Assembly (NCBI GenBank): GCA_011620595.1
Contig: WOYX01000003.1
Coordinates: forward strand, 1-64,000
Direction: 5' to 3'
DNA length: 64,000 bases
Source of the DNA: Bacteroidales bacterium
Lineage (GTDB): Bacteria > Bacteroidota > Bacteroidia > Bacteroidales > VadinHA17
Position numbers and translations under genes: made by a program. The notes beneath the pieces are model-generated. The model made no database searches and was not told the origin of the DNA. It worked only from the letters and a program-made list of their open reading frames with translations. Of the stretch, positions 44,207 to 50,711 are shown one piece after another. Within the stretch, counting starts at the first letter, position 1. Every line of letters starts with the position of its first letter.

Positions 44207-45706
44207 TTATCTGCGCCTGGCAGGTGCGGTTGTCTCTGAGCTGCTGCTGCTTCTCGCGGGTGTGCTGCTGACGCTGCTGCTGCTCTTTTCGACAGGTGCG
44301 CTGTAGCTGCTCCTGGTGTCGCTGCTGGTTCTTGCCGGAGCGCTGCTGACGCTGCTTGAGGTGTTCCTTGCGGGTGTGCTGCTGACGCTGCTTGAGGTGT
44401 TCCTTGCGGGTGCGCTGCTGACGTTGCTCGAGGTGTTCCTTGCGGGTGCGCTGCTGACGCTGCTTGAGGTGTTCCTTGCGGGTGCGCTTATGACGCTGCT
44501 TGAGGTGTTCCTTGCGGGTGCACTGCTGATGCTGCTCGAGCTGCTCCTCGAAGGGGCTGTAGAAGCTTCCCTGCGGGTGACCTCTGCCCTGTCAGGTGCA
44601 GAGGGTCTGGTCGCTGTCGTGCTCTTTACTTCAGCCAGATCCCTCCGGTCTGTAGCTGCAGCCTGACCGGTGACGCTCTCGCGGCTTCTGCTGACTGCCT
44701 CGCGGCTTCTGCTGACTGCATCCGGATTCCTGCGGTCACTGCTGACGGCTTCGGGATTCCTGCGGTCGCTGCTGACAGTCGACTGCGTCTGAACCCTGGC
44801 TGACTGATCAGCGGCGCTCCTTCTGCTGTCTCCGGAGGTAACTGCACTGCGACTGTCGCGGCTGGCGGATACCTTCCTGTAGAGTTCCTCACCATCTCTC
44901 CTGGATTCAGGCCGGGTATAAGTCTGCTTGTAGTGACCCTCTGTTTTCCTCCGTTCAACATTATGTGAATAGTAGCGCACGCGCGGGTAGTAGAAGTCGT
45001 TGTAATAGTGATGCACTGGGTGGTTCCAGTGATGGTACCAGGTGTAGTAGTGGGGGTACCAGTTGTAATGGTATCCGTAGTAGTGGTGCCAGTACCAGGG
45101 GCTCCAGGGCTCCCAGTAGGCAGGCCAGTATCCCCAGTACCATCCTGAGTGCCAGGCCACGTAGTTGGGCCTGAACATCCAGTCGAGCACCGGCCACGAG
45201 AGATCGTAGTAGTATACGTTGTCGACGTAGATCACATCGTCATAGTAGAGAGGATCACCGTTGTATCCGGGATTGGGTCTGTTGCCCTTCGGTTCTATCA
45301 CGTAGTTGCGGCCATAGAGCAGCTCGTCGCCGATAAGCTGTATGCGTACCTTGTTCTTGTTCTTGCGCTCGACGATAAAGACAGCCACATCCTGGAAGTC
45401 GTTCCTTCCAAGTACCGCCCTTAATACTATGGTGTGTATCTTTCCGTCCACATAGTCGGTGACCGTTATGTAGTCGATGAAATTATCCCCGTTGAGGTCA
45501 AGGTTGTTGATCCGGGAGTCCCTGTCATTGAGGTTCCTTTCGAACTCCTCAAGGGTCTTCGACTCCTGGAAGAGATTCATCACGGCGAAGAGGTTCATGT
45601 TGTCACCCGGGAGACCCAGGTACTCCTCAGGCCAGTCCTGTCCACGGACTATCGTCCCTGCTGCTACCAGGACTGCGAGGATCGATGTGATAATTAACTT
45701 TTTCAT
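44207..45706 (-). CDS. Secreted protein with Trp/Tyr/His-rich core and Ser-rich 12-aa-repeat tail
   Basis: 499-aa ORF: signal peptide; NNLDLNGDNFIDYITVTDY; WHSGWYWGYWPAYWEPWSPWYWHHYYGYHYNWYPHYYTWYHHWNHP; repeats of APARNTSSSVSS. Confidence 0.85.
   Translation of the reverse strand: MKKLIITSILAVLVAAGTIVRGQDWPEEYLGLPGDNMNLFAVMNLFQESKTLEEFERNLNDRDSRINNLDLNGDNFIDYITVTDYVDGKIHTIVLRAVLGRNDFQDVAVFIVERKNKNKVRIQLIGDELLYGRNYVIEPKGNRPNPGYNGDPLYYDDVIYVDNVYYYDLSWPVLDWMFRPNYVAWHSGWYWGYWPAYWEPWSPWYWHHYYGYHYNWYPHYYTWYHHWNHPVHHYYNDFYYPRVRYYSHNVERRKTEGHYKQTYTRPESRRDGEELYRKVSASRDSRSAVTSGDSRRSAADQSARVQTQSTVSSDRRNPEAVSSDRRNPDAVSRSREAVSRSRESVTGQAAATDRRDLAEVKSTTATRPSAPDRAEVTRREASTAPSRSSSSSISSAPARNTSSSVISAPARNTSSSVSSAPARNTSSNVSSAPARNTSSSVSSTPARNTSSSVSSAPARTSSDTRSSYSAPVEKSSSSVSSTPARSSSSSETTAPARRR
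44340..44519. repeat. Five 36-bp tandem repeats inside the 44207-45706 gene
   Basis: gcgctgctgacgctgcttgaggtgttccttgcgggt x5 with few substitutions. Confidence 0.93.
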
Positions 45707-45936
45707 CTCTTTAATTTTATCTGAAGAATTGGCTCTTCACAGTTAACAAAGCAAAGGGCGTGCCAAACTGCCTTATGTGCCCATAAGTTGGTTATTTGAG
45801 CATGTTTTTGATAAGATGTATGATATATTTTGATTCAGGGTTTGAAATTGCACTGGTCAGGGTCCAGGGAGCAAGGTACAGAGTGTTGCCGGGCATGCTT
45901 GTTTTTCGTATCTTGCAGAGGTTAAAATATTGAGAT

Positions 45937-46644
45937 ATGAAAGCAAGAGCTATAATATTGGTTATGATCATCCTGGTGGCAGCAAACCAGGCAGAAGGGC
46001 AGAAGAGGGAAAAACTGATGACGGTCACAGGTACCGTTACCGATACCGAGATGTATCCGGTGGCCGGTGCCCTGATAGTGATTGATCTTCAGGACTCGGG
46101 TACCAAAACACGTAAAAACGGAACCTATAAAATAAAGGTCAGACCAGATGTCAGGAGTGTAGGGGTCTATACATCCAACATGGGGTCGGCAGTGACAGTG
46201 TTTGAGGGTCAGCAGAAAATCGATTTTGTACTTGACGGCACGGAAGCAATGGTGAATTTCGCTCCGGTGGTTCGTGAAGGCGATACGAAGGTCGACATTG
46301 GATACGGCACGGCTAAGAAAAAGGACGTCAACACTGATGTTGGTTATATAGACGGCCAGACTGTTGACAACGCATCCTACTCGAACATATATGATATGAT
46401 CCAGGGCAAGGTGCCGGGAGTGGATGTTGTTGGCAATACAATCACAATCAGAGGAATAGGATCACTTAATCTCAGTTCCGATCCCCTATTTGTCGTTGAT
46501 GGCGTTGTCGTTAGCTCAATAGATAACATCAGCCCCCGCGAAGTCAAGTCGATATCAGTGCTCAAAGGCTCCAGTGCTGCCATCTACGGAACCAGGGGTG
46601 CCAACGGCGTCATCCTCATTACCCTGATAGGATCCGGGAGGTAG
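45937..46644 (+). CDS. Stand-alone CarboxypepD_reg-like plus TonB-receptor plug protein, no beta-barrel
   Basis: 235-aa ORF: VTGTVTDTEMYPVAGALIVID; YDMIQGKVPGVDVVGNTITIRGIGSLNLSSDPLFVVDGVVV...ISVLKGSSAAIYGTRGANGVILITL then stop. Confidence 0.85.
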   Translation: MKARAIILVMIILVAANQAEGQKREKLMTVTGTVTDTEMYPVAGALIVIDLQDSGTKTRKNGTYKIKVRPDVRSVGVYTSNMGSAVTVFEGQQKIDFVLDGTEAMVNFAPVVREGDTKVDIGYGTAKKKDVNTDVGYIDGQTVDNASYSNIYDMIQGKVPGVDVVGNTITIRGIGSLNLSSDPLFVVDGVVVSSIDNISPREVKSISVLKGSSAAIYGTRGANGVILITLIGSGR

Positions 46645-46670
46645 ACAGGCCTCACACCTTAACCGGTCTG

Positions 46671-46925
46671 ATGATCGCTGCAAGCCGGAGTGAGATGAAT
46701 GACAATCTCTCGAAACCGTTTGCTCCGGACACAAAGTGCTGTACCTTCAATCCCCGGATTCCCAATTATATGACCGGGGTCATACTCTCCGACACCGACC
46801 CCGCCCTGGAGGAGGGCATGAGAAGGATCAGAGCAAGGATCGGGTCGGGTGAGGGCATTTTCCCCAACGGGGTATATCCGACACGCCGCTACCGAGCCAG
46901 AGAAGCAAGTATTACTAAACTATAA
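46671..46925 (+). pseudogene. Possible N-terminal fragment of a CCTF-PNY motif hypothetical protein
   Basis: 84-aa ORF; KCCTFNPRIPNYMTGVILSDTDPALEEGMRRIRARIGSGEGIFPNGV resembles the start of a larger conserved hypothetical protein. Confidence 0.4.
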
Positions 46926-46967
46926 AGAGAAAGCGCAGGGTGTTATTCACTGCGCTTTCTCTTTATA
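46921..46967. terminator. Bidirectional terminator hairpin
   Basis: Perfect 18-bp inverted repeat tataaagagaaagcgcag/ctgcgctttctctttata with 11-nt loop, between convergent ORFs. Confidence 0.85.
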
Positions 46968-47032
46968 ATCTGTGCTCTGCCTGCTGCCTGGCCCCGGTGC
47001 TCCGGAGCAGAGGCGGCCTGAGCTCCTTGCCT

Positions 47033-48688
47033 TTATCTTCTCGATGATCGGCTGCTGCTTTCAGAGCTCTTTGAGCTTTTGGAACTGCTGCTCTTTGAAG
47101 AGGTTCCGCTGCTGCGGCTGTTGCCACTGCTCCTCGAGACTGAGCCGCTGCTGCGACTGCTGCTGCCACTGCTCCTTGAGACTGATCCGCTGCTTCTTCC
47201 CTGGCTGCTGCTGCGTGAGGAGACACTGCTGCCTTTTGAGGAGACACTGCTGCGACTCTGTGACCTGGCAGCAGGAGCCGATGAACTCCGGGATGCGGAG
47301 GGAGTCGACTTCTGACTTGCCGACTGTCTTGAGGATTGCGACCTTGCGGCTGTCGACTGTGACCTGCTCACCGGGGCCTGTGATCTCTGCACTGAGCTCT
47401 GCGACCTGGGTGCGGATGACTGCGACCTGCTCACCGATGACTGCGACCTCTGTGTTGAACTCTGTGACCTTGCGGTTGTGGACTGTGACCTCTGTGTTGT
47501 TGTGCTCCCTGATGTGGCAGTTGTGCCAGATCTCTGCGATGAGGTTGCAGGAGCGCTCCTGACTGCCGAAGATGATGACCTGCGGTTCAGATCTCCGCTC
47601 TGCGAGGCGGCAGACCCGGAAGTGCTTCTGTTCTGCACTGCCGTGGATGACCTGCGGTTCGCGTCACCGCTCTGGGGTGCTCCTGCCTTGGTGGTACTCC
47701 TGCTCTGTACTGCAGAAGATGACCTGCGGGATTCGCCGCTCTGTGCTGCATTTGTGCTGCCGGAGCTGCGCGAGCTTGTGGCAGATGAGCTTCTCCTCTG
47801 GCTCTCGGATGATGCTGCCGGACGGGCAGTGCTGCTTCGCGATCCGTGGGTGCTGGCGTAGAGAGCCTCGCCTTCACGCCTCATCTCGGGATGAGAGTAG
47901 GTCTTCTTGTAGTGCCCTTCGGTGATACGTCGTGAGACGTTGGGAGAGTATGCCCTTACACTCTTGTAGTAATAGTCGTTGTAGCGATGGTACCTCGGAT
48001 GGTCCCAGTAGCGGTAGTGTGCGTAGTAGTGAGGGTACCAGTGCGAGTGATATCCGTAGTAGAAGTGCCAGTAGTAGGGTCTCCAGGGCCTCCAGTAGAC
48101 CGGGTAGTAACCCCAGTACCACGATGAGCGCCAGCTGACGTAGTAAGGATTGTATATGAACCTGATCACCGGCCAGGCAGCGACTTCATAATATGTGGTA
48201 GTTACCACGGTGACATTGTCTCTGTAAACCGTCCTGCCTTTGTAGCCGGGATTAGGTGTCTCTGCATATATGGGTTCCACGATGTAGTTTCTTCCGTAAA
48301 GCGCCTCATCGCCGATGAGCTGTATCTGCACCGACCCGTTACGGAACTTCTCCACGGTGAAGACTGCCACATCCTGGTATTCGTTGCGGTCGAGAGCTGC
48401 ACGCAGCACTATGTTGTGAACATTGCCGTCGACATAGTCGGAGACGGTCAGGTAATCAACCATGTTGTCACCGTTAAGGTCGAGGTTGTTGATCCGGGAG
48501 TTCTCGTCGTTGAGGTTCCTCTCGAAAGCTTCGAGGGTCTCAGACTCCTGGAAAAGCTTCATCACTGCGTAGAGATTCAGATTGTCACCCGGGAGACCCA
48601 GGTATTCCTCCGGATAGTCCTGTGCCCTGACTGTCGTCGCTGAGGCTATCAGGATTGCGAGGATCGATGTGTAGATTAAATTTTTCAT
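47033..48688 (-). CDS. Paralog of 44207-45706: secreted aromatic-rich protein with Ser/Arg/Gln low-complexity tail
   Basis: ORF track starts at 48736; ATG at 48688 gives MKNLIYTSILAILIASATTVRAQDYPEEYLGLPGDNLNLYAVMKLFQESETLEAFERNLND; YVSWRSSWYWGYYPVYWRPWRPYYWHFYYGYHSHWYPHYYAHYRYW; RSQSS-type repeats. Confidence 0.85.
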   Translation of the reverse strand: MKNLIYTSILAILIASATTVRAQDYPEEYLGLPGDNLNLYAVMKLFQESETLEAFERNLNDENSRINNLDLNGDNMVDYLTVSDYVDGNVHNIVLRAALDRNEYQDVAVFTVEKFRNGSVQIQLIGDEALYGRNYIVEPIYAETPNPGYKGRTVYRDNVTVVTTTYYEVAAWPVIRFIYNPYYVSWRSSWYWGYYPVYWRPWRPYYWHFYYGYHSHWYPHYYAHYRYWDHPRYHRYNDYYYKSVRAYSPNVSRRITEGHYKKTYSHPEMRREGEALYASTHGSRSSTARPAASSESQRRSSSATSSRSSGSTNAAQSGESRRSSSAVQSRSTTKAGAPQSGDANRRSSTAVQNRSTSGSAASQSGDLNRRSSSSAVRSAPATSSQRSGTTATSGSTTTQRSQSTTARSQSSTQRSQSSVSRSQSSAPRSQSSVQRSQAPVSRSQSTAARSQSSRQSASQKSTPSASRSSSAPAARSQSRSSVSSKGSSVSSRSSSQGRSSGSVSRSSGSSSRSSGSVSRSSGNSRSSGTSSKSSSSKSSKSSESSSRSSRR

Positions 48689-48994
48689 CTCTTTAAACTT
48701 TTTGGAAGAACTGTCTCTTCGGTTAATGAAATTCAAACATTATGCCAAAGATTCTTTTAAAGGCAATAGAGGGGCAAGCGTTAATAAATGACCCGGTGGG
48801 TCATTTTAACGAAGCAGCCAGCCTGCAGGGAGGGCAGTAAACAGTAGTGTCATGGTTTTTTTCTATTCATAAACAACGATACTGAATTCATAAAAGTATT
48901 GTAGTCTAATGGGAATATCAGATATCCATATGCCGCAGGCATTATGGTATTGAAGCGCAGCTTGGCATCCACAAACCCCATATGCCGTAGAGCC

Positions 48995-49063: not shown

Positions 49064-50026
49064 TCAGAAAATCTTCAGGAAGGCTGAAAACATGACTACA
49101 AATCCCTTCGGCCCGGGGTAGAGGGGGTCAGAATACATCGGCATAACATAACTGATATCCGCCTCCAGCGACATGAAAGGCAGATTAAATGATACCGGCA
49201 CCCCGAATTCCATCTCTATCAGGTCGAATTTTTCTGAATAGACGGTAGTGGTAGTCGGGATTTCAGTAGAGGTAGTTGTTGTGGTTGTCGTGGTGCCTGA
49301 TCCGGTTGATCCCTGACCCTGTCCCGAGCCGGGTCCCTGTCCCATGCCGGATCCTGATGTGACCGGAACGCTGACGGGTGTGACAAGAGTCCGGGTCGTG
49401 GTTATAAGTTCCGTCCCCTCCATAATGCCGGCCGTGGTCAGGTCGCCGAACAGAAGATTGGCATATGGCCCGAATGAGAAGGTGGCTTTTCCCCTGAAGA
49501 AGGACGGTGTCTCGAAATACCTTGAGTTTTTTACCTGGAAATAAGCAGGCGGTTCTCTCATCACGAAAGCGCCGTATGATAATTCTGTGTAGAGTATCCT
49601 CCAGTCGATACCCAGTGAAAGGTCGGCATAGTTGAAATTGCTGAAGAGAGTGTCGGTTAGTTCAGGTTTGACCATATACCTGGACAGACCTGCGGAGATG
49701 TCAAACCATGAATTGAAATCATGACTGTAGGCCATGGAGGCGCTGTAGAAGGAGGGAGCCGATTGCTCAAGTCCCGGCAGATAGAAGGCTGCGCCCGTCA
49801 GGCTCAGCTCACCACCGATAAGATATGAAAGTGCTCCGTACCCGAAAGGCAGGTCACGTGAGATGGTTGAACCGAGATATATCATGTTGCTGCCGTAACC
49901 CGTGCCGGTATAAAGGGAATGAATATCCTTTTTCGTTGAAGCCTGTGCAGTGTCACCCTGTGCAACTGCGTTCAGAGGCATCAACAGCAGCAACAGACCG
50001 GCACATATCAGGCGGATAACTCGCAT
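49064..50026 (-). CDS. Hypothetical outer membrane protein with Gly/Gln/Thr-rich loop
   Basis: ORF track starts at 50185; ATG at 50026 begins a signal peptide MRVIRLICAGLLLLLMPLNAVAQ; repetitive GSGMGQGPGSGQGQGSTGSGTTTTTTTTS. Confidence 0.7.
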   Translation of the reverse strand: MRVIRLICAGLLLLLMPLNAVAQGDTAQASTKKDIHSLYTGTGYGSNMIYLGSTISRDLPFGYGALSYLIGGELSLTGAAFYLPGLEQSAPSFYSASMAYSHDFNSWFDISAGLSRYMVKPELTDTLFSNFNYADLSLGIDWRILYTELSYGAFVMREPPAYFQVKNSRYFETPSFFRGKATFSFGPYANLLFGDLTTAGIMEGTELITTTRTLVTPVSVPVTSGSGMGQGPGSGQGQGSTGSGTTTTTTTTSTEIPTTTTVYSEKFDLIEMEFGVPVSFNLPFMSLEADISYVMPMYSDPLYPGPKGFVVMFSAFLKIF

Positions 50027-50138
50027 CTCAATGATTTGGCGCAAAGGTACTCCGGGAAGATGAACAAATAATGAAGAAATGTCAAGAATCAGTTCATCTT
50101 TGGGTGTTACAACATACCTTGCAATAAATTTATCCGAC

Positions 50139-50711
50139 ATGAAGACTATTGCGATAATATCATCGAGCGTCAGGAACGGCCGCAACAGTCACAGGGTGGC
50201 GCTTTACTTCAATAATTACCTTGAGGAGCATAAAATAGCTATAGCAGATATCATTGATCTTGAGGAATATAACTTTCCCTTATTTGACGAACGGCTTCGT
50301 CTGCAGAAAGATCCTGCACCCGGGGCTTTGGAGTTTGCGAAGAGAATCCGCAATGCCGCCGGGGTGATAATAATTGCGCCGGAGTACAACGGCGGCTATC
50401 CGGCCAGCCTGAAGAATGTTGTTGACCTTCTTTATGATGAGTGGCGAAAGAAACCTGTCGCAATCTCAACCGTCTCCGACGGTCCTTTTGGCGGCACCCA
50501 GGTCATTACTTCGATTCAGTTTTCTTTGTGGAAGATAGGTGCCTGGACTGTCCCGGCAATGTTCCCCGTGCCACGGGTTTTAGAGACTTTTGATGAACAG
50601 GGAAGACCTTCTGACAGGTCAGCAGTAGATAAACGTGCTGCCAGGTTCATCAATGAACTGCTCTGGTGCATTGATGCCACGGAGCTGATGGCCGGCCGCC
50701 CGTCCTCTTAG
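50139..50711 (+). CDS. NADPH-dependent FMN reductase-like flavoprotein
   Basis: ORF track starts at 50079; ATG at 50139; IISSSVRNGRNSHRVAL, IIAPEYNGGYPASLKNVVDLLYDEW, KPVAISTVSDGPFGG. Confidence 0.9.
   Translation: MKTIAIISSSVRNGRNSHRVALYFNNYLEEHKIAIADIIDLEEYNFPLFDERLRLQKDPAPGALEFAKRIRNAAGVIIIAPEYNGGYPASLKNVVDLLYDEWRKKPVAISTVSDGPFGGTQVITSIQFSLWKIGAWTVPAMFPVPRVLETFDEQGRPSDRSAVDKRAARFINELLWCIDATELMAGRPSS

Follow-up and report, generated by a model that had tools for sequence, protein, structure and literature searches.

Mapped sigma-54 regulons are scarce in the Bacteroidota, and the literature we searched yielded one, that of F. psychrophilum. Its sigma-54 promoters, mapped by experiment, precede genes for chaperones, envelope stress and gliding as well as genes for exported proteins of unknown function, and the regulon includes Skp, DnaK, HtpG and Lon (PMC9723704). 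In addition, sigma-54 has been argued to be a general controller of the bacterial exterior (PMC3162934). The two aromatic-rich proteins described here resemble the exported proteins of the F. psychrophilum SM4 regulon, among them THC0290_1426 and THC0290_1870, in being predicted to be exported, in having a −24/−12 promoter and in belonging to Bacteroidota; PMC9723704 names no such family. Within the proteins themselves, the closest described element is the calcium loop of the dockerin, EF-hand and FG-GAP families, which has a counterpart here in a similar DxNxDxxxD loop preceding a strand. In contrast to members of those families, the aromatic proteins give no profile match to them over cut-off and no matching fold among the Foldseek matches listed. 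Our search of the literature on aromatic-rich secreted proteins found nothing relevant.

The two genes lie on the reverse strand of the window, by which we mean the whole 64,000-nucleotide stretch of DNA that was analysed; it comes from contig C3 of a Bacteroidota MAG whose near relatives are Bacteroidales MAGs. Paralogue 1 (44207..45706, 499 aa) and paralogue 2 (47033..48688, 551 aa) are 56% identical across 357 aa (E 7e-143) and share one architecture, consisting of a Sec signal peptide (judged by eye in both), an N-terminal domain, an aromatic core and a tail rich in Ser and Arg. Both open reading frames, their common DLNGDNxxDY motif and the plug gene between them on the opposite strand are present where the original prediction had placed them.

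The aromatic core is as extreme as had been claimed. The best 65-residue window of paralogue 1 (44969..45163, reverse strand) is 62% W, Y and H (71% when P is included) and that of paralogue 2 (47966..48160, reverse strand) is 57% (66% with P), while the best such windows of 986 other genes average 12% W, Y and H and reach a maximum of 31%. Across 27 aligned sequences 13 positions are invariant (W153, P154, W167, S169, W171, W173, P177, W180, W183, Y191, G193, Y194 and H195, in alignment numbering), which argues that the core is more than a matter of composition. A core of W, Y and H with so many conserved positions, including the invariant H195 and the pair Y191 and Y194, would suit a matrix that binds Cu or Zn through His or is oxidatively cross-linked through dityrosine. 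We consider this quite unlikely, since the invariant residues are chiefly W, Y, P and G in a motif of the WYWGYxPxYW type rather than a His/Cys metal site; moreover, a comparison of the family's neighbouring genes across the phylum found none of any kind conserved, and thus no linked metal or redox enzyme.

The tails likewise bear out the description of long Ser-rich extensions that differ in sequence. They are Ser/Arg-rich and unlike one another in the two paralogues, with a net charge of +15 in paralogue 1 (44210..44875, reverse strand) and +36 in the low-complexity tail of paralogue 2 (47036..47854, reverse strand). Throughout the family the tails evolve rapidly and are mostly basic.

The conserved N-terminal domain lies at 45290..45634 (reverse strand) in paralogue 1 and corresponds to residues 25-139 of paralogue 2 (48272..48616, reverse strand), where it contains the calcium-loop-like motif DLNGDNMVDY. 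It comprises about 115 residues, is almost gapless in the alignment of relatives, and carries the calcium-type loop DxNxDxxxD in 92 of 97 family members. In an AlphaFold2 model of the domain (mean pLDDT 85.6), two helices precede a meander of four strands; in a longer model the aromatic core is predicted in part and its flanks poorly. In a Foldseek search of PDB with the domain model the best match had E 0.18, short of the threshold of E ≤ 0.001, and at that threshold neither this model nor the long one matched anything in PDB or BFVD. Searching solved structures by sequence with the aromatic proteins gave chance matches only. The paralogues, together with near and distant members of the family, had no Pfam or NCBIfam match over cut-off, and neither paralogue matched an NCBIfam model for the type IX secretion C-terminal sorting domain. 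The nearest approach was a weak alignment of the N-terminal domain to the surface polysaccharide family NF046077 (M949_RS01915; E 0.013), which at 15 bits falls far under that family's cut-off of 60 bits. The N-terminal domain thus showed membership in no known family by Pfam, NCBIfam or PDB fold, and the proposal of an undescribed secreted or surface protein family stands.

This unnamed family is widespread in the Bacteroidota. Searching with the protein, we found relatives in more than half of the genomes of its own GTDB family (64 of 117), and a profile of the N-terminal domain found members in 25 of 198 genomes sampled from the order and in 29 of 297 sampled from the phylum. On plasmids we found one distant homologue, carried by a plasmid of Aureibacter tunicatorum. 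The architecture is shared by nearly all members that we read: their cores resemble WYWGYxPxYW, and their tails are polar and unrelated in sequence; one copy (L129.8) consists of the N-terminal domain alone. In three Flavobacterium-like loci (L126, L127 and L129) an ECF sigma gene set, which includes a small exported protein resembling Spy or an ECF sensor, is found a short distance upstream of the aromatic gene.

The strongest trait that the family has in common is not its neighbours but a sigma-54 −24/−12 promoter, an element absent from the original prediction. Reading the upstream DNA of family members revealed a recurrent TGGCAY-N-TTTG(C/A) element. Paralogue 1 has a near-perfect consensus site, TTGGCACGCCCTTTGC, at 45751..45766 on the reverse strand, and paralogue 2 has TTGGCATAATGTTTGA at 48733..48748, also on the reverse strand; against the sigma-54 elements, −24 GG and −12 G(C) in the spacing TGGCACG-N4-TTGC, the first is a full match and the second has GA at −12. 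When 87 distinct upstream regions were scored against the published sigma-54 consensus, with at least 9 of 11 positions as the threshold, 43 of the 87 members matched; among the other genes of these loci 6 of 926 did so, and among shuffled sequences 3 of 1740. A weighted promoter score of at least 12, which unlike the published-consensus test was set after the promoters had been viewed, was reached by 65 of the 87 members and 23 of the 926 other genes. The promoter mostly lies 54-60 bp from the ATG (about 57 bp in both paralogues), and in footprints of orthologous upstream regions the only conserved parts are the promoter, an inverted repeat and the start region.

Within the 3.08-Mb genome the strict form of the promoter, TTGGYAYRNNNWTTGM, occurs at two sites, exactly upstream of paralogue 1 and paralogue 2. 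Since the same pattern read backwards also has two sites in the genome, it is the placement of these sites, and not their number, that is informative. A looser pattern gave one further match in the same genome, on contig C12. Taken together, these observations strongly suggest, from the DNA sequence, that the aromatic genes are under sigma-54 control. Of the GTDB families sampled, 13 of 23 have the promoter; it is absent from the sampled members of families f3, f4, f7, f31, f35 and f63 and from about half of those of f6, and sigma-54 control is therefore not universal in the family.

Downstream of the promoter is the inverted repeat GAAGA-N6-TCTTC, located on the reverse strand at 45723..45738 in paralogue 1 (GAAGAGCCAATTCTTC) and at 48705..48720 in paralogue 2 (GAAGAGACAGTTCTTC). 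Placing the predicted +1 at 12 nt from the −12 base makes both predicted transcripts start one base before the repeat, which thus begins at +2, and gives each of them a 33-nt leader. The repeat was found in 31 of the 87 members and in 2 of 1066 control genes, and it is kept in many Bacteroidales members. Folding of the RNA hairpin is weak (z −2.3 and −0.6) and the stem has no covariation, and on these grounds we rejected the reading of the repeat as a structured-RNA hairpin. Given the weak hairpin, the repeat may act either as DNA or as RNA.

The same genome encodes RpoN (C54:40794-41267) and has four strong matches to PF00158, the domain of enhancer-binding activators. RpoN was present in 37 of 38 host genomes tested, so its presence offers no contrast for members that have no promoter. 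The orthologue footprints contained no conserved activator site upstream of the promoter.

With the F. psychrophilum regulon and the argument for sigma-54 control of the exterior as precedents, we read the family as proteins of the envelope or surface that are produced when needed. Our main reading, to which we give a probability of roughly 0.6, is that the paralogues belong to an unnamed family of exported envelope proteins in the Bacteroidota and that sigma-54 (RpoN) acts as the switch for their transcription. Export and an envelope location are predictions from the protein sequences. An activator sensing an envelope or environmental signal would switch on both genes; the proteins would then be exported, the N-terminal domain would fold with calcium, the aromatic core would stack or self-assemble, and the basic, disordered-type tail would bind acidic surface polymers such as LPS, capsule or DNA, the outcome being a protective or adhesive coat. 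The coat, and the binding of acidic polymers through tail and core, are suggested by composition and are the part of which we are least sure. A bolder version, in which the N-terminal domain is a new small calcium-dependent fold and the family forms a self-assembling, aromatic and basic envelope coat that sigma-54 switches on in a shared response remodelling the surface, is speculative, and we would not bet on it. We also hold it to be unlikely that the family is an envelope-stress sensor or chaperone: here the N-terminal domain would do the work, the core would bind unfolded outer-membrane proteins and the tail would be a spacer. This reading draws on the inclusion of Skp, DnaK, HtpG and Lon in the regulon mapped for F. 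psychrophilum (PMC9723704) and on the proximity of the gene to an ECF sigma set in three Flavobacterium-like genomes, but that linkage is confined to one genus and the models have no significant likeness to solved structures, known periplasmic chaperones included. For sigma-54-switched envelope proteins as we read them, the conserved promoter gives a widespread family that has no Pfam or NCBIfam model a defined and testable regulatory context; conversely, the family offers a sequence handle on the role of RpoN in the Bacteroidota.

The gene between the paralogues (45937..46644, forward strand) encodes a 235-aa protein with a CarboxypepD-like and plug region, which we judge to be a neighbour outside the aromatic-protein unit. 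The protein had been described as a CarboxypepD/plug protein; the plug assignment holds (Pfam Plug, 2.7e-15), while the CarboxypepD matches fall under the Pfam gathering score. It also matches the first 202 of the 981 positions of TIGR04056, the SusC/RagA model (5e-39). It resembles the SusC/RagA TonB-dependent transporters in this region and in the SusC signature that closes the plug, and differs from them in ending with the plug, with no barrel, while being intact and conserved in length. The open reading frame stops after the SusC signature both in the window and in its relatives (229-262 aa in those read), and a C-terminal outer-membrane barrel was absent from it and from the relatives read. 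The gene is genuine and intact. It is frequently duplicated in tandem. In other genera of the taxonomic family (L200-L209) barrel-less CarboxypepD-plug proteins are encoded mostly between miaB and aspS. Our search of the literature on plug-only SusC proteins found nothing relevant to this conserved family.

The original prediction treated the aromatic pair and the plug protein as parts of a single system; in such a system the plug would supply TonB energy or substrate to a secreted aromatic matrix. In the window's genus linkage of the genes is indeed the rule (15 of 17 genomes), and within the taxonomic family their presence is correlated (both genes in 53 genomes, one without the other in 11 and 19, neither in 34). 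This co-occurrence is, however, confounded by shared ancestry, and many genomes have one gene and not the other. Outside the genus, 36 genomes of the taxonomic family carry both genes, and in none of them are the two linked; the plug gene has a synteny of its own, lying between miaB and aspS in the sampled genomes of genus g13 and elsewhere in G114; and by eye we saw no sigma-54 promoter upstream of it, the promoter being on the aromatic genes only. Genus-limited linkage and independent synteny largely refute the single system, which we regard as very improbable; a lack of conserved neighbours is also what the original prediction had itself named as counting against it. The simplest reading is that the plug and aromatic genes are independent and vertically inherited and are neighbours by chance in one genus.

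Finally, the intergenic region holds, in addition to the plug gene that the original prediction reported there, a remnant that it did not include. An 84-aa open reading frame at 46671-46925 is what remains of a YkgJ-like cysteine-rich gene that in L033 and L035 is intact and 372 aa long; the fragment matches it at 88% over 74 aa. Close relatives have extra genes between the paralogues, which we named by eye as a PadR-like regulator, HAAS- and GldL-like membrane proteins and the YkgJ-like protein; the window genome has none of the PadR-, HAAS- and GldL-like genes between its pair. As it retains only the fragment of the YkgJ-like gene, the short three-gene arrangement came about partly through loss. 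The gene upstream of paralogue 2 (49064-50185), which by eye resembles an outer-membrane beta protein, is kept in nine loci of the genus.
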